34,982 bases of DNA from IMG/VR virus record IMGVR_UViG_3300046804_002202, positions 1 through 34,982 of that record; one strand, 5' to 3'. The DNA is from a virus. The notes under the pieces are model-generated. The model did no database searches. It was not told the DNA's origin and saw nothing but the letters and a program-made list of their open reading frames with translations. This document shows, in pieces, positions 16,814-23,792 of this stretch. Position numbers and translations under genes: made by a program. Position 1 is the first letter of the stretch. The number at the start of each line of letters is the position of its first letter.

Positions 16814-17614
16814 ATGCCTTCTCCTATTCCAACTAAAAAAACAGTAGCAGATTTAAAAGCATCTATTTTAAATCCTGCGTTAACCTCTCATTTTGAATGT
16901 TCCTTTAATCCACCAGGTGAAGTTAGGAAGTGGATTAATCAGAGAACTTCTGCGGGAATAGGCAATGGATATAATGATAATTTAATTTCATTGTCTTGTT
17001 CTGAAGCATCTTTACCTGGATCATCTTTAGCAACTCATGAAATTAACAATGATTTCACTGGAGTAACTGAAAGGCATGTTTACAGAAGGCAATATGATGA
17101 TAGAGCAGATTTTACTTTTTATGTCGATCATGATTACAATGTTCTTCAGTTTTTTGAAAACTGGATGTCTTATATTGTAGGAGAGGAAATTTCTGGTGGT
17201 GTATTAGTTCCAAATTATTCCTATCGTGTTAATTTTCCAGATGATTACAAAACTGAAATTTATATTAAAAAATTTGAAAGGGATTACAGTGGAAGAGTAT
17301 TGCAATATAGATTCTTAAATGCTTATCCAATAAGCATTAATTCAATGCCAGTTTCATATGATTCATCTCAATTATTAAAGTGTACAGTATCATTCAATTA
17401 TTCTAGATATGTTATAGGTGGTGGTGAAGTTCTTGTACCTCCAAAAGAAGCACAAACACCTGCAGAACAAGCGGCAAATATTTCTCCAGGAAATTCTGAA
17501 TTTTCTTCTTCCACAACTTCTGAGGAATATTATGGACAACTACCACCAGTCGAATCTGGACTTCCTTATGTTGGAAGAAACCGTGGACCCCTTGCACCAT
17601 TTTCTGGTATCTAA
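16814..17614 (+). CDS. gp19/gp54-family tail tube or tube-initiator protein
   Basis: The 266-residue protein has the tail-tube fold pattern of the T4 gp19 family: SHFECSFNPP near the N terminus, SLSCSEASLPGSSLATHEIN, ADFTFYVDHDYNVLQFFENWM, and RVLQYRFLNAYPISINSMPV. The Ser/Pro/Gly-rich C-terminal tail is extra. Neighbours gp48, gp53 and gp26 suggest the tube initiator gp54 rather than the main tube protein, which normally lies beside the sheath gene; this is inference. It reads divergently from the gp4 block. Confidence 0.75.
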   Translation: MPSPIPTKKTVADLKASILNPALTSHFECSFNPPGEVRKWINQRTSAGIGNGYNDNLISLSCSEASLPGSSLATHEINNDFTGVTERHVYRRQYDDRADFTFYVDHDYNVLQFFENWMSYIVGEEISGGVLVPNYSYRVNFPDDYKTEIYIKKFERDYSGRVLQYRFLNAYPISINSMPVSYDSSQLLKCTVSFNYSRYVIGGGEVLVPPKEAQTPAEQAANISPGNSEFSSSTTSEEYYGQLPPVESGLPYVGRNRGPLAPFSGI

Positions 17615-17647: not shown

Positions 17648-18367
17648 ATGCCTTTACCAAAGATCTCTACGCCAACACATGAGTTGGAACTACCTTCTAC
17701 TGGACAGACGATTCAGTATCGCCCTTTTCTTGTGCGAGAAGAAAAACTTCTTGTATTAGCACTTGAAAGTGAGAACACAAAAGAAATTACAACAGCAATT
17801 AAGAACGTCATTAAAAATTGTATCCAAACAAAAGGAGTAAAGGTAGAGTCACTACCTACCTTTGATATTGAATATCTCTTCCTTAATATTCGTGGTAAAT
17901 CTGTTGGAGAAGAAATTGAAGTTAATATTGTTTGTCCAGATGATGGAGAAACTTATGTTCCAGTGAAGATTGATATTGATGAAATTAAAGTACAAAAAAA
18001 CGAAGAGCATACGACTAAAATTCAAGTAGATCCTTCCATCGTAATGGAAATGAAGTATCCATCATTGGATCAATTCATTAAAAATAACTTTGACTTTAAT
18101 GAAAACAATTCAATGGATCAGTCATTTGATTTGGTTGCTTCTTGTGTAGATAAGATTTATACTGAAGAAGAAGTTTGGTCTGCTGCTGATGTAACTAAAA
18201 AAGAACTGATTGACTTTTTGGAGCAAATGAATTCCTCACAATTCAAACAGATTGAAAAGTTCTTTGAGACAATGCCTAAACTTTCTCATACGGTTAAAGT
18301 CAAGAACCCAAATACTGAAGTTGAAAGTGAAGTTGTATTGGAGGGACTATCCAGTTTTTTCGCATAG
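17648..18367 (+). CDS. 26: Baseplate hub/tail assembly protein gp26
   Basis: The 239-residue protein begins MPLPKISTPTHELELPSTGQ and continues QYRPFLVREEKLLVLALESEN, the opening of gp26 proteins in T4-like phages. A small zinc-like pair (C98 region VCPDDGE) and a helical C-terminal half (FLEQMNSSQFKQIEKFFETMPKL) follow. In T4, gp26 is needed for hub assembly. The family is thought to act with gp51 as the tail-assembly chaperone pair for the tape-measure protein. The gene ends at a T_TTT_TTC sequence just before its TAG stop, in the right frame for -1 frameshifting into the next ORF. Confidence 0.85.
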   Translation: MPLPKISTPTHELELPSTGQTIQYRPFLVREEKLLVLALESENTKEITTAIKNVIKNCIQTKGVKVESLPTFDIEYLFLNIRGKSVGEEIEVNIVCPDDGETYVPVKIDIDEIKVQKNEEHTTKIQVDPSIVMEMKYPSLDQFIKNNFDFNENNSMDQSFDLVASCVDKIYTEEEVWSAADVTKKELIDFLEQMNSSQFKQIEKFFETMPKLSHTVKVKNPNTEVESEVVLEGLSSFFA

Positions 18368-18385
18368 GAATGATCCATATGGATC
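18355..18385 (+). promoter_or_regulatory. Candidate -1 programmed ribosomal frameshift site
   Basis: The gp26 codons read AGT TTT TTC GCA TAG, so T_TTT_TTC (18355-18361) is an X_XXY_YYZ heptamer in the correct phase. Slipping back by one base reads CGC ATA GGA ATG and continues in the frame of the gp51-like ORF to 18549, giving a fusion of about 300 residues. A perfect 14-base palindrome, GATCCATATGGATC (18372-18385), starts ten bases after the heptamer and could act as a weak stimulatory hairpin. Confidence 0.6.
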
Positions 18386-18549
18386 TTGAAAATTTTTATA
18401 AATTAAATTTTTCGTTGATGCAGTATCATAAATATTCATTAACGGAGATTGAAAATATGATGCCTTGGGAAAGGGATGTTTATGTTGCTATGCTAAAGAA
18501 TTATTTGGAAGAAGAGAAAGCAAAGCAGCAGCAACAAAATGGGACCTGA
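18379..18549 (+). CDS. 51: gp51-like tail assembly chaperone partner
   Basis: This 56-residue ORF starts MDLENFYKLNFSLMQYHKYS and contains LTEIENMMPWERDVYVAMLKNYLEEEK. A short hydrophilic protein with an E-x-M-PW-E pattern is typical of the second member of tail-assembly chaperone pairs, annotated gp51 in T4-like cyanophages (from memory). ATG 18379 has AGGA nine bases upstream; ATG 18370 in the same frame lies too close to that site. The frame is open through the end of gp26, allowing a frameshift fusion. It overlaps the next gene by 11 bases. Confidence 0.7.
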   Translation: MDLENFYKLNFSLMQYHKYSLTEIENMMPWERDVYVAMLKNYLEEEKAKQQQQNGT

Positions 18550-20590
18550 CGAACTAGACGATCTACTATCAAATATTAGAGCAGAATCTAAAAGAGAATC
18601 TGCTCTGTCTTTGTATGAAGGAACTAGAGAAGAAGATCTCGTAGACGAGGAAGTAGACGAAAGAGTTTTAACTTTACTTGGACTTAATGAAGTTTTTGAT
18701 ATTGATTATGGAACTTATGTTTCTCTTTTAAAAGAAAGATTAGTAGAGTCTAGAAATTTTGATAAGAGACTTTCTTCAGAGGAAGATGAGTTGCTAGTTA
18801 GTGAGTTTAAAAGAGTAAAAGGAAAAGTAGGTAGATTCAAATTAAAAAGAAAGAAAGTCACTTCAGATAATATTGGAGTAACTGGTCCTATTCGTGTATC
18901 ATCAGACAAGTTTTTATTAACTGGAAAAGCAATAGTTCCTGAGTCTGCAGATAGTGAAAGTTCTGAAGATGTAAAGGATATAGAAAAGTTGCTTGATGAA
19001 TTACTTAATAATATCCGCTTACAAAATAAAGAAGAAAAGAAAAAGTCTGAGAAAGAAAGAAAAGAATCTGAGGATAAAAAAAGAAAGAAAAGAGAAAGTG
19101 ACTTAGAAAAACCTATTGTATTAGCAAAAAAATTACTTAAAACTATTGTAGCGCCATTTCAAAGTATTCTTGATAGGATTTTTAGATTCATAGGATTTAC
19201 TTTACTTGGTTATGCCTTCAATAATCTTATTAAGTGGTTCTCTGATCCTAAAAATGCAGAAAAAGTTAAGTTAATCGGAAGAATACTAAAGGATTGGTGG
19301 CCCGCTATACTTGGCGCATATACTCTTTTTGCAACTCCTTTTGGAAAATTTATTCGCTCTATAACTGGAATATTATTTAAATTTACGCCGAAATTACTTT
19401 CATTAATAGCAAAAAATCCAGTTGCAACAGCGGCAACTGCAGCTGGCGTTGGTGCTTTTATCTCTGAATTGAAAGTTGAGCAGTTTAGATCTGAGCAAAA
19501 GAAAACGGATAAAACTATCGTAACTCCAGAAGAAACTGCTAAGACTGGAAAAACACCTGCTCCACCACAACTATATCAAGAACAGATGTTGAGGAGTGGT
19601 ATTGGATTTAATGGCGGTGGAGTTGTTCCTAGATTTGGAAAATCTTTCTTTGGTGGTGGGCAAGTCTCTAGAGATCTTAATATAAATGATATTGCATATG
19701 AAGGTGGTGGTGGAATATATGATGATAGTGGTTTAAGAATCACTGGTGCTGGTCCTGACACGCAGTTGATCGCTGCTGCTCCTGGCGAAATTGTAATGTC
19801 CAAAAAGGCAGTTGATAAGTATGGCGCAAACTTCTTCTTAGGATTGAATAAGAAAGCAGGTGGAACTAACATTCCTAAAATGGTGAATAATATTCAACTT
19901 GCTGCTGGAGGAGGATTGGTTAGAAAACCTGTTCAATCTTTCCAAGGTGGCGGAATGGTTGGTTCAAAACCATCTGGTGGATTTATGGATTGGTGGAATC
20001 GCGGAAGAAATGTAAGAGTTCCGAATGAAAATACAGCAAGGTTTGGTGGATTAAATCAATACATCAGAAAAAATCCAGATCCAACAACTTTACTTGGTGA
20101 TGATGCTAGACAAATTACTAGAAGCAACAAAGCATTTCAATCAGGTGCTACTGGATATAAAGGATGGAATCCTTTTAAAGCATTTACTCCTGGTATGGTA
20201 AAGACTGGTCCAACTCCTGCAATTCGTCAAGCAGTAGAAAGACCTTTAAGAGCATTTTCTGGTGCTTCAAAACTAATGAAAGCGGCAGGAGGAGCAGCTG
20301 GTTCTGTTCTTATGGATATGATTTTTCCAGAACCAGACTTTAATCCAACACTTGATGATGCAAGGAGAATGGGACTACCAATGGGTCCTCAATCTAAAGC
20401 ATCTCCGCCAGGACCTCCCGTGATTTATACTAAAACAACTTATACAGTTCTTCCTCCTATTAAAGCACCATCTAAAACTCCTGCAATTGCAAGAGGTTCT
20501 AAAATTCCTGAATTTATTGTATCATCAACTAATGATACACGCTCAAAAAATGCTTCAATTTTAGGAATTGCTGATCTTATAGGAGCATAA
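18539..20590 (+). CDS. Tape-measure-like virion protein, first paralogue
   Basis: The 683-residue protein has an acidic N-terminal region and a long highly charged Lys/Glu coiled-coil stretch (about 150-190). A membrane-like hydrophobic block RFIGFTLLGYAFNN (216-229) follows, then further hydrophobic segments to about 310. The glycine-rich C-terminal part contains PDTQLIAAAPGEIVMSKKAVDKYG, typical of tail proteins. The hydrophobic block is repeated in the next gene (RFIGFTLLGYIFNN), so the two are paralogues. The place after gp26 and gp51-like suggests the tape-measure role of T4 gp29, shared or divided between the two. Confidence 0.65.
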   Translation: MGPDELDDLLSNIRAESKRESALSLYEGTREEDLVDEEVDERVLTLLGLNEVFDIDYGTYVSLLKERLVESRNFDKRLSSEEDELLVSEFKRVKGKVGRFKLKRKKVTSDNIGVTGPIRVSSDKFLLTGKAIVPESADSESSEDVKDIEKLLDELLNNIRLQNKEEKKKSEKERKESEDKKRKKRESDLEKPIVLAKKLLKTIVAPFQSILDRIFRFIGFTLLGYAFNNLIKWFSDPKNAEKVKLIGRILKDWWPAILGAYTLFATPFGKFIRSITGILFKFTPKLLSLIAKNPVATAATAAGVGAFISELKVEQFRSEQKKTDKTIVTPEETAKTGKTPAPPQLYQEQMLRSGIGFNGGGVVPRFGKSFFGGGQVSRDLNINDIAYEGGGGIYDDSGLRITGAGPDTQLIAAAPGEIVMSKKAVDKYGANFFLGLNKKAGGTNIPKMVNNIQLAAGGGLVRKPVQSFQGGGMVGSKPSGGFMDWWNRGRNVRVPNENTARFGGLNQYIRKNPDPTTLLGDDARQITRSNKAFQSGATGYKGWNPFKAFTPGMVKTGPTPAIRQAVERPLRAFSGASKLMKAAGGAAGSVLMDMIFPEPDFNPTLDDARRMGLPMGPQSKASPPGPPVIYTKTTYTVLPPIKAPSKTPAIARGSKIPEFIVSSTNDTRSKNASILGIADLIGA

Positions 20591-20594
20591 TGAG

Positions 20595-23500
20595 ATGGCA
20601 ACCATAAACTCTAAGAAACTATTACCTTCAAGCACTAAAGGTAGTGCTATTGAGAAACCAAAGTTTCTTGTTCCAGTTAAAAATATTTCCACTAAAAAAA
20701 TAACTGGATCTGATTTAAAACCAATTGATAAGAAATCGGATACTTCTGGATCTCTTGTTGTAATCAAAAATAAGTTAATTGATATTAACAATGTCTTTAA
20801 ATCAACTTATCTTATCAATAAAAAAACTAATGAAAGAAAAAGGAAAGAAAGCGAAACACAAAAGTCAAAAGAAAGAGAAACTAAACTAGAAAAAAAGGAA
20901 CAGAAGACATTTACCTTTGGTATAATAAAAAGTGTTCCTGGTGGAAGTATTATAGATGCAATAAATCGTTTTATTGGATTTACTCTTCTTGGATATATCT
21001 TTAATAACTATGCAAAGTATCTACCAAAATTAATAAAGTTGGGTGCAAAACTGGCACCAGCAATGAAGTTTTTTGAATCATTTGCAAAAACTTTATTAGA
21101 TAAAACCATAACTTTTGTAGATCTTGGATATAAGGCTTTTGATGCTGTAAAGAAAACTGTAAAGGACATTGGTGGAAAAAATTATGAGAAGATCTTTAAT
21201 GATTTCAGTGACAATTTAAATAAAGCACTTAATGTTGCACTCGTTATTGCAGGATTAGCAATATCTAAAAAAGGTCCTGGAGAGGGTGGTGGTGCAAGAG
21301 GAACGACATCATTTTTATCATCTCTTCTTAGAGGAAAGGCACCAACAAAAGCAAGTGATGCTTCAATTGCTAAAAGACTAGCAGCACGTAGATTAGCAGA
21401 AGCACGTAGATCTAGACTATCCCAAAGACTGCAACAAAACGCTAAAAAAGCAAGAGCAGCAGAACTTGCTAGACAATTGGAGCCAGGAAGAGGAATTTAT
21501 AAAAAAACTCCACAACTTAGTGGAGTTACTCAATATGTTGGTGTTGGTGGTAGGGCAGATGTAAGAGATCCTTCGGTTGTAGATAAACTGAATAAACTTC
21601 TTGAAAGATCATCACCCGGAGAATTAAAATCTGGTACTAAAAAAATTAAATTAGGTGATCTTAAAAGTAGAGGAATTCCTAGAGGATCTAAACCTGCATC
21701 TTTATCAATTCCAAAACCTTCTGGCGTTCCTAGTGGACTGGTTGCAAAAGGTGCTGGCAGTGCAAAATCATTTTTAAAAGTAGCTTCTGTTCCTGTTGTA
21801 AGTGCGTTAGCAGATTTTATTATTAGTTATTTTATTTTGAAAGAAAAACCAGGTAGAGCAGCTGCTAGTGCCATTGGATCTGGAATTGGTACTTTATTAG
21901 GAACTGCTGCTACTACTGCACTTGGACTTGGTACAGGTGGAATTGGAGCAGCAATTTTAGGTGGAGCAATTATTGGTGGATCCTCTATGGTTGGTAGTGC
22001 TTTCGGAACCACATTATATGATGCAGTTGTTGGAGCAAAAAAATCTTTTGGATTTGCTCAAGGTGGACAAGTATCAAGAGGTGGAAAGACAAGAGGTGCT
22101 CCTTCAAGAACACTTAAAACGAAAACCAGAAAAGCACCACCAAAAATTCAACCACAAAAAACACAACCTGGAAAAGATGTTGGTGGTAAATTAAAAATTG
22201 AAGAACTCTATGGTAAGGACGAACCAGGAAAGAGAAGTGCATTAAGAGCACTCCGAAAGAGTTCTGATGATGTAAAGAGAATGAGGTCCATTAACGGACT
22301 TGCTGGTTCAATGTTCGGTGCTGGTATTGATATGGCACTTGGACAAAAACCAGATAAAAATCTATCAAGAAATCTTGGAAATATTTTTGGATCGGTGATT
22401 GCATCTGCAGTTGATATGGAACTTAATAATTCTTTTGGAGATATTTCCAGATCTATTGCAATGGCAAATGGTGGTACAGTTCCTTCAAGACAAATTGGAA
22501 AGAGTTTAAGTATCGGTGAAAGAATTGGTAATTTTATTTCAAGAGCACTTGCAGTTTCTATTGAGAGTTCTGCGACAAGGATATTACAGAACTTACGTAA
22601 TGAAATGAATTTGGAAGGTGGTGCTCCTGGTGGTGGAGATGGAATGCCACCTGGAGAAGTTCCTGCCGCAGATATTTCTGATGATCAAAGAAAGGCATCA
22701 AATGATCTTATCAAGTACTTTGAAAAATTATATGGAAAAAATGGAGCAATTGGGGTTGTTGCAAACTTGTTAAGAGAAAGTGGACTAAGAACCACTACAC
22801 CAGATAATGCATCATATGAAGGAATGGCACAGTGGGATAGAGCACATAGATGGCCAGCTTTTGTAAAATGGGCACAGTCAAAAGGAAAAGATCCTTATAG
22901 TCGTTCTGCTCAGGCGGAATGGATTGCAATAGAATTAAAGCAACTTGGAACTGATGCACGATTAAAAAATGCAAAAACTCCAGAGGAGGCAGCAAGTTTA
23001 TTTTATAATGAATTTGAAAGAGCCGCTTATAGTAAACCAATTCTTGGTGATAAATATACTCCAGATAATCCTCATGAAAGAAAAAATAGATCTTTTATCC
23101 AATCATTAGTTGGTGGTTCTTCAGTTGCTCCTCCTGCAATGGTTACTGGAGGATTAAAACCATCACAAATTCAACAAACATCTCCGCAAGGATGGAGATG
23201 GGGAAGAATGCATAAGGGAATTGATTTAGATGGTGGTGATGGATCTCCAATTTCATCTGCACAAGATGCAACTGTCGTTTGGGCAGGAGATAAAGGTGAT
23301 GGTTATGGAAATAGTGTTGTGCTTAGATACTCTAATGGGGCAGAGACTAGATTCGCACATTTAAAATCACTTAACGTTAGAAAAGGACAATCAATAAAAG
23401 CGGGTCAATTAATTGGTAGACAAGGAAACACTGGAAGTTCAACCGCTTCACATTTACATTTTGAATATTATCCTAGTGGTGGAGCGATGACATATGAGGG

Positions 23501-23792
23501 ATATGGCAATGCTACATCAGTAAAAGATAGTTATTTTAGATATGGTGGAAATGTAAAACCAAAATTTTTAAGTACACCACCTGATATTTTTAATATTGGA
23601 GATAAAAAATCTCAAGATAAAAATAAACCATCTGATATTTTTAATTGGAATCAATCTTCTGTTGCACCATCACAAACTTCAACAGTTGCATCATTAAATA
23701 GGACTGGTGCTTTGAAAGAACATACATCCGGCGCAGTTGCTTTAATTCAGAAGGACATTTATTTGGCAACACAAATAATTGAAACAGCGTAA
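20595..23792 (+). CDS. Tape-measure-like virion protein with lysozyme-like and M23 peptidase domains
   Basis: The 1065-residue protein shares the N-terminal plan of its upstream paralogue: a charged coiled coil (about 75-105), then RFIGFTLLGYIFNN (125-138) and long Gly/Ala hydrophobic segments (about 400-480). Residues about 690-835 resemble a phage tail lysozyme (AIGVVANLLRESGLRTTTP, GMAQWDRAHRW). Residues about 858-965 are an M23 metallopeptidase with H873-x-x-x-D877 (HKGID) and H953-x-H955 (HLHFE). It probably sets tail length and opens peptidoglycan during injection, replacing the lysozyme of T4 gp5. AGGAG (20581-20585) supports this start. Confidence 0.82.
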   Translation: MATINSKKLLPSSTKGSAIEKPKFLVPVKNISTKKITGSDLKPIDKKSDTSGSLVVIKNKLIDINNVFKSTYLINKKTNERKRKESETQKSKERETKLEKKEQKTFTFGIIKSVPGGSIIDAINRFIGFTLLGYIFNNYAKYLPKLIKLGAKLAPAMKFFESFAKTLLDKTITFVDLGYKAFDAVKKTVKDIGGKNYEKIFNDFSDNLNKALNVALVIAGLAISKKGPGEGGGARGTTSFLSSLLRGKAPTKASDASIAKRLAARRLAEARRSRLSQRLQQNAKKARAAELARQLEPGRGIYKKTPQLSGVTQYVGVGGRADVRDPSVVDKLNKLLERSSPGELKSGTKKIKLGDLKSRGIPRGSKPASLSIPKPSGVPSGLVAKGAGSAKSFLKVASVPVVSALADFIISYFILKEKPGRAAASAIGSGIGTLLGTAATTALGLGTGGIGAAILGGAIIGGSSMVGSAFGTTLYDAVVGAKKSFGFAQGGQVSRGGKTRGAPSRTLKTKTRKAPPKIQPQKTQPGKDVGGKLKIEELYGKDEPGKRSALRALRKSSDDVKRMRSINGLAGSMFGAGIDMALGQKPDKNLSRNLGNIFGSVIASAVDMELNNSFGDISRSIAMANGGTVPSRQIGKSLSIGERIGNFISRALAVSIESSATRILQNLRNEMNLEGGAPGGGDGMPPGEVPAADISDDQRKASNDLIKYFEKLYGKNGAIGVVANLLRESGLRTTTPDNASYEGMAQWDRAHRWPAFVKWAQSKGKDPYSRSAQAEWIAIELKQLGTDARLKNAKTPEEAASLFYNEFERAAYSKPILGDKYTPDNPHERKNRSFIQSLVGGSSVAPPAMVTGGLKPSQIQQTSPQGWRWGRMHKGIDLDGGDGSPISSAQDATVVWAGDKGDGYGNSVVLRYSNGAETRFAHLKSLNVRKGQSIKAGQLIGRQGNTGSSTASHLHFEYYPSGGAMTYEGYGNATSVKDSYFRYGGNVKPKFLSTPPDIFNIGDKKSQDKNKPSDIFNWNQSSVAPSQTSTVASLNRTGALKEHTSGAVALIQKDIYLATQIIETA

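Follow-up and report, generated by a model that had tools for sequence, protein, structure and literature searches.

A probable programmed -1 frameshift joins gp26 to the gp51-like frame and would give two forms of a tail assembly chaperone in cyanophages and their relatives

Introduction

Does the short gp51-like reading frame that overlaps the end of gp26 belong to a gene of its own, or is it the end of a longer gp26 protein that is reached by a -1 ribosomal frameshift? The question is raised by a viral DNA of 34,982 nucleotides (IMG/VR record IMGVR_UViG_3300046804_002202), the whole of which is called the window here. A sequence-only reading of the window had proposed a -1 frameshift into the gp51 frame, by analogy with the lambda G/GT pair. 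Both the frameshift and the analogy survived every test that we ran, and we consider it very probable that the locus is a lambda G/GT-type programmed -1 ribosomal frameshift giving two forms of a tail assembly chaperone.

The lambda proteins gpG and gpGT, the latter made by frameshifting, work on the tape measure and tail tube proteins and have departed by the time the tail is complete; T4 has been named as the exception to the conserved chaperone frameshift (Atkins 2016). Of the two T4 proteins listed as hub assembly chaperones, gp26 and gp51, the latter is needed in assembly and is not part of the particle (PMC3004832). The first 200 residues of T4 gp51 have no counterpart in cyanophage gp51, a difference stated without explanation in the relevant passages of Sullivan et al. 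(2010).

The sequence-only reading knew of no description of the arrangement for T4-like cyanophages; for T4-like phages, calling it undescribed is wrong. Their tail assembly chaperone genes were reported by Vladimirov, Gautam and Davidson (2022, Virology 566:9-15), according to the title of that paper and the papers citing it. PRFect (PMC10885494) cites it for T4-like phages with a short gene and a fused long gene, and PMC12846349 for poly-T frameshift signals in T4-like phages. As cited there it is the same system as ours, some phages having poly-T slippery sites and others two genes, one short and one long and fused. The phenomenon is already known and the locus in the window is a further case. 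That earlier work is said to have found frameshifting conserved in several T4-like groups, with T4 itself using separate genes 26 and 51. For the cyanophage gp26/gp51 frameshift we found no direct report in the open literature. The detail added below on the loss of start codons, on the SD-like element and on the hairpin of the subclade was not found in the literature searched, in which Vladimirov et al. is represented by its citations.

Results

The slip site and the end of gp26

The last codons of gp26 in the window are TCC AGT TTT TTC GCA TAG. The heptamer T_TTT_TTC is in the phase required for tandem slippage, fit for two Phe tRNAs, and is followed by one sense codon (GCA) and the stop; its exact phase close to the gp26 stop is as the sequence-only reading had it. 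Likewise as stated there, the -1 frame runs open into the gp51-like frame; its open stretch reaches from 18334 to a TGA at 18547-18549. Reading in the -1 frame would give 238 + 62 = 300 residues, in agreement with the fusion of about 300 residues that had been anticipated. The predicted junction peptide is ...SSFFRIGMIHMDLENFYK, and the -1 translation from the slip onward is RIGMIHMDLENFYKLNFSLMQYHKYSLTEIENMMPWERDVYVAMLKNYLEEEKAKQQQQNGT. The coordinates of these and other features are collected in Table 1.

The number of heptamers in the window was rejected as evidence because it is uninformative: TTTTTTC occurs 24 times in this AT-rich DNA against about 32 expected by chance. The copy at the end of gp26 is the only one on the sense strand of any gene. 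On the minus strand, over positions 1-34982, the motif is found 21 times (mostly GAAAAAA when read in sense), against a single copy on the sense strand of the genes, and in-phase T_TTT_TTC may be avoided elsewhere. The significance of the signal comes from comparison with relatives and not from the motif by itself.

Table 1. Positions in the window of gp26, the slip site and the associated features
Feature	Position	Strand	Basis
gp26 (239 aa), putative short tail assembly chaperone (TAC-N, like lambda gpG)	17648..18367	+	profile matches and AlphaFold2 model
TGGAGGG, an SD-like candidate for an upstream stimulator; about nine bases separate its end from the heptamer	18339..18345	+	anti-SD pairing, Glu codon bias
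Slippery heptamer T_TTT_TTC, in phase	18355..18361	+	sequence and conservation in relatives
Predicted -1 frame extension (TAC-C, 'gp51-like', lambda T-like), 62 codons after the shift and stop	18361..18549	+	open frame, substitution pattern, phrog_634, tail HMM
Zero-frame stop TAG of gp26	18365..18367	+	sequence
Possible independent gp51 starts: ATG 18370 and ATG 18379, with AGGA 18366-18369	18370..18381	+	sequence
GATCC-ATAT-GGATC, a clade-specific hairpin 10 nt past the heptamer and candidate for a downstream stimulator	18372..18385	+	covariation

Conservation of the heptamer

The close-relative set comprised 80 loci from viral contigs. Of these, 79 reach the end of gp26, and in all 79 an in-phase T_TTT_TTC stands one codon ahead of the stop. 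Pelagibacter, Sinorhizobium, Stenotrophomonas and T4-type queries supplied further loci for a wider set (the Stenotrophomonas Ps15 query yielded only two viral contigs). It contained 251 usable loci, and T6C or T7 was present in phase, at most 12 codons from the gp26 stop, in 244. Clustering at 70% protein identity reduced the loci to 75 representatives, 69 of which have a T_TTT_TTY heptamer (T_TTT_TTC in 55 and T_TTT_TTT in 14). The phase of the heptamer, a point on which the sequence-only reading could be checked, is conserved in both sets.

The heptamer ranges from cyanophages to phages of Pelagibacter, Sinorhizobium, Stenotrophomonas, Agrobacterium, Aeromonas and Vibrio. Annotated phages with a gp26 identity of roughly 22-36% also have the site, namely KVP40/ValKK3, Aeromonas 65 and P19, Stenotrophomonas Ps15, and Agrobacterium OLIVR6; in Sinorhizobium phiM12, within the same range of identity, it is T_TTT_TTT. 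Pseudoalteromonas XG4 has T_TTT_TTA. The six representatives without the heptamer are Ackermannviridae-like phages, Cygsa01 and the locus L265, which is itself a T4-type gp51 gene and was set aside.

Coding in the -1 frame

In all 241 junctions the -1 frame runs 44 codons or more without a stop. Its substitution rates at codon positions 1, 2 and 3 are 0.19, 0.10 and 0.40, a coding-type pattern, and in the first nine codons past the slip the corresponding rates are 0.28, 0.14 and 0.41. The gp51-like tail matches the phrog_634 profile (E 4e-28). Among the representatives the residues right after the slip are conserved as Arg, then Ile/Leu/Val, then His. The records of ACG-2014b, ACG-2014d, Syn30 and Aeromonas 65 have no annotated gp51, yet the conserved -1 frame is present in each.

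In the accessions KJ019044, KJ019080, HQ634189 and NC_015251 the gp51 frame was left unannotated, apparently for want of a start codon.

Family, fold and gene neighbourhood

The gp26 protein of the window belongs to the T4 gp26/gp51 family (PF12322, phrog_150/phrog_634). It matches PF12322 (T4_baseplate) at E 3e-77, with 259.5 bits against a cut-off of 24.5, and phrog_150 at E 1e-81. A search of PDB sequences with gp26 gave no match, and a Foldseek search of the gp26 model against the PDB gave nothing significant, the HK97 chaperone appearing only at E 1.5. When PDB chains were re-aligned to residues 1-92 of the model, the top three were RBSTP2171 (Z 8.2), the HK97 tail assembly chaperone gp13 (Z 7.9) and YqbN (Z 7.3), and the next fell to Z 5.3 and 4.0; a Z near 8 is suggestive only.

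The gene directly before gp26 (16814-17614) encodes a tail tube protein (PF23849). Two long ORFs follow, 18539-20590 and 20595-23792 (683 and 1065 aa), both with weak tape-measure matches, and one of the two may be the tape measure gene. The 1065-aa ORF also has phage lysozyme and M23 peptidase domains. Because of the fold likeness, the gene position and the literature on T4 gp26 and gp51, the role best inferred for gp26 is that of a tail assembly chaperone.

T4 gp26 and gp51 as a natural control

T4 has two divergent genes, one for gp26 and one for gp51. Both proteins match PF12322 (E 9e-64 for gp26 and 4e-52 for gp51) and phrog_150, and T4 gp51 covers the latter profile to position 280 of 282 whereas T4 gp26 reaches only 235. 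An HMM built from the -1 tails matches the C-terminal 45-55 residues of T4-type gp51 (E 1e-6 to 4e-13), from the core/tail boundary on, and does not match gp26. AlphaFold2 models of the window gp26 (pLDDT 92) and of a T4-type gp51 (pLDDT 88) agree closely in the order of their strands and helices; gp51 has three further helices at its end. As judged from the sequence matches, T4 gp51 is the fused form of core plus tail and is paralogous to gp26.

T4 gp26 ends with GAG TTC TTT GAG TTA CTA TAA, with no T run. Like the window protein both T4 proteins fall in PF12322/phrog_150, and T4 gp51 combines the core with the same C-terminal tail; unlike in the window there are two divergent genes and the T run is missing, so no frameshift is needed. 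Evidently T4 obtains the short and long forms from two genes, and most of the sampled relatives obtain both from one gene by frameshifting. In T4 (L096:7803-9229) and at the loci L092 and L093, gene 26 is paralogous to gene 51 and is inverted, in divergent orientation to it.

Candidate stimulatory elements

Upstream of the heptamer, pairing to the 16S rRNA anti-SD shows a sharp peak for 7-mers that start 11-18 nt away, with a mean over the 69 representatives of -5.5 kcal/mol against a background of +0.4 kcal/mol, and this peak is due in part to a conserved Gly codon. The Glu codon ahead of that Gly is GAG rather than GAA at 25:8, compared with 439:1055 elsewhere (p 7e-8).

The sequence-only reading also pointed to a palindrome downstream. 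Its position ten bases past the heptamer was correct, but as a general part of the signal it did not hold up: the HMD motif that carries it is found in only 52 of 191 distinct junctions, and the palindrome was rejected as a universal stimulator. The hairpin is present only where the tail begins ..[VI]HMD... In such tails Val is GTC in 33 of 34 cases (GTC makes up 11% of Val codons elsewhere) and Ile is ATC in all nine. Furthermore, the Asp codon tracks the first base of the stem, GAC going with GTC and GAT with ATC (30:4 against 0:9, Fisher p 1.3e-6, uncorrected for shared descent). RNA folding downstream of the site in the single window sequence was no better than that of shuffles (z = -0.02). 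The codon pattern suggests that a hairpin with compensatory changes was gained in the subclade of the window; most relatives lack it. In these alignments the putative SD-like GGAGGG is much more widely conserved than the hairpin.

Alternatives to ribosomal frameshifting

Alternatively, gp51 could be a gene in its own right: ribosomes that terminate on gp26 would reinitiate at ATG 18370 or 18379, using the AGGA at the gp26 stop, and the T run would be incidental. It is annotated as a separate gene in many deposited records, and in the window ATG 18379 has the AGGA nine bases upstream, close behind the gp26 stop. However, among the 69 representatives the first 13 codons of the -1 frame are without ATG in 55 and without ATG, GTG or TTG in 49, and the Met codons have been lost even in the near relatives L004, L011 and L064. 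As start codons are absent in most representatives, reinitiation cannot be the general route to gp51. The conserved Arg, Ile/Leu/Val and His stand ahead of any start, and the invariant in-phase T6 would be left unexplained. Some free gp51 may be made from the two ATGs and the AGGA of the window; a separate gp51 gene as the account of the locus is very unlikely. Given a frameshift origin of the tail, cyanophage gp51 would be mostly an annotation fragment.

Two further accounts concern the T run itself. The polymerase rather than the ribosome could slip there and produce mixed mRNAs; the site is a homopolymer run, and in the assembly of one relative (L258) it has T5 and not T6. Against this, the runs are mostly only six T long (T6C in 55 of the 69) and always begin at a third codon position, the phase that slippage of two tRNAs in tandem calls for. 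Transcriptional slippage usually needs longer runs and has no need of a codon phase. The upstream SD-like element also suits a ribosomal mechanism, and we hold polymerase slippage to be extremely improbable. Scarcely credible, in our judgement, is that the Phe-Phe end is kept merely for the gp26 protein and that the T run is a product of codon bias. Phe-Phe is invariant in the gp26 alignment, and the genes favour TTT and T-ending codons. Yet the codon preceding TTT specifies Ser (AGT or TCT), Asp, Asn, Ala, Thr or His in the 69 representatives and always ends in T, whereas the other Phe-Phe pairs of the same genes use all codon combinations. Were the 69 representatives independent, the codon usage of the genes would put the probability that every one has TTT after a codon ending in T at about 1e-24; because they are related, this figure exaggerates the surprise. 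Nor would codon bias account for a -1 frame without start codons.

Discussion

Our data are consistent with a model of programmed -1 frameshifting in which most ribosomes would terminate at the gp26 stop and yield the short form (TAC-N). On T_TTT_TTC a minority would slip, the two Phe tRNAs pairing anew one base upstream, and translation in the -1 frame would then yield a long form of 300 residues (TAC-NC); its mostly helical tail is what is annotated as 'gp51'. If lambda is a guide, the tape measure protein would be bound by both forms, and the long form would in addition bring in tail-tube subunits. We infer that slippage occurs, that a minority of ribosomes undergo it, and that it serves tail assembly. 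Its efficiency is probably set by the upstream SD-like sequence together with, in this subclade, the short downstream hairpin. A bolder proposal, which we regard as evenly balanced, is that in cyanophages and their marine relatives the frameshift is the only route to gp51, which would then not be a gene, and that the SD-like element and the newly evolved hairpin of the subclade tune its efficiency as a dnaX-like two-part stimulator gained on an ancient slip site.

On the frameshift model, the entry 'gp51, baseplate hub assembly catalyst' would be the end of a frameshift product, and the annotation of a core tail gene would be corrected in hundreds of marine phage genomes. This would explain why cyanophage gp51 is so short (about 20% of T4 gp51; Sullivan et al. 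2010) or is absent from records. The conserved site would also offer many natural variants in which to study the control of frameshift efficiency by the SD-like element and the hairpin in cyanobacterial ribosomes.

Shared with lambda gpG/gpGT would be a chaperone that comes in a short and a -1-extended form owing to a slip close to the 3' end of its gene, in the tail tube/tape measure region. The site differs, being T_TTT_TTC here, and the T-like tail has about 60 residues; between the window system and lambda gpG/gpGT no sequence similarity was detected. In Vandenendeviridae and Andersonviridae (phage Adele, PMC12846349) a poly-T motif, GTTTTT, ahead of the tape measure gene is likewise the site of a conserved -1 chaperone frameshift. 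These are other families with another motif, one nearer to the variant sites of the Ackermannviridae than to T_TTT_TTC.

Those variant sites are different and weaker, and occur in the Ackermannviridae-like members (Vi01, Kuja, SD25, Bue1 and K469) and Cygsa01. At the corresponding loci (L087, L088, L089, L094 and L269 for the Ackermannviridae-like phages, L084 for Cygsa01) the tail frame is also -1 and open, and the sites are ATT_TTC, GTT_TTT or CTT_TTT, which would permit single-tRNA slippage only. In Kuja the tail starts without an ATG. The Stenotrophomonas phage contig L258 has T5 near position 1947, where the near-identical L257 has T6, which breaks the gp26 frame; it is either a homopolymer sequencing error or a real variant, and L258 was set aside among the loci without the heptamer. 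In L081 and the other Mosig-like loci (n = 22) the zero-frame stop lies ten codons past the first Phe codon of the slip site, not two to five, and the slip site is unchanged.
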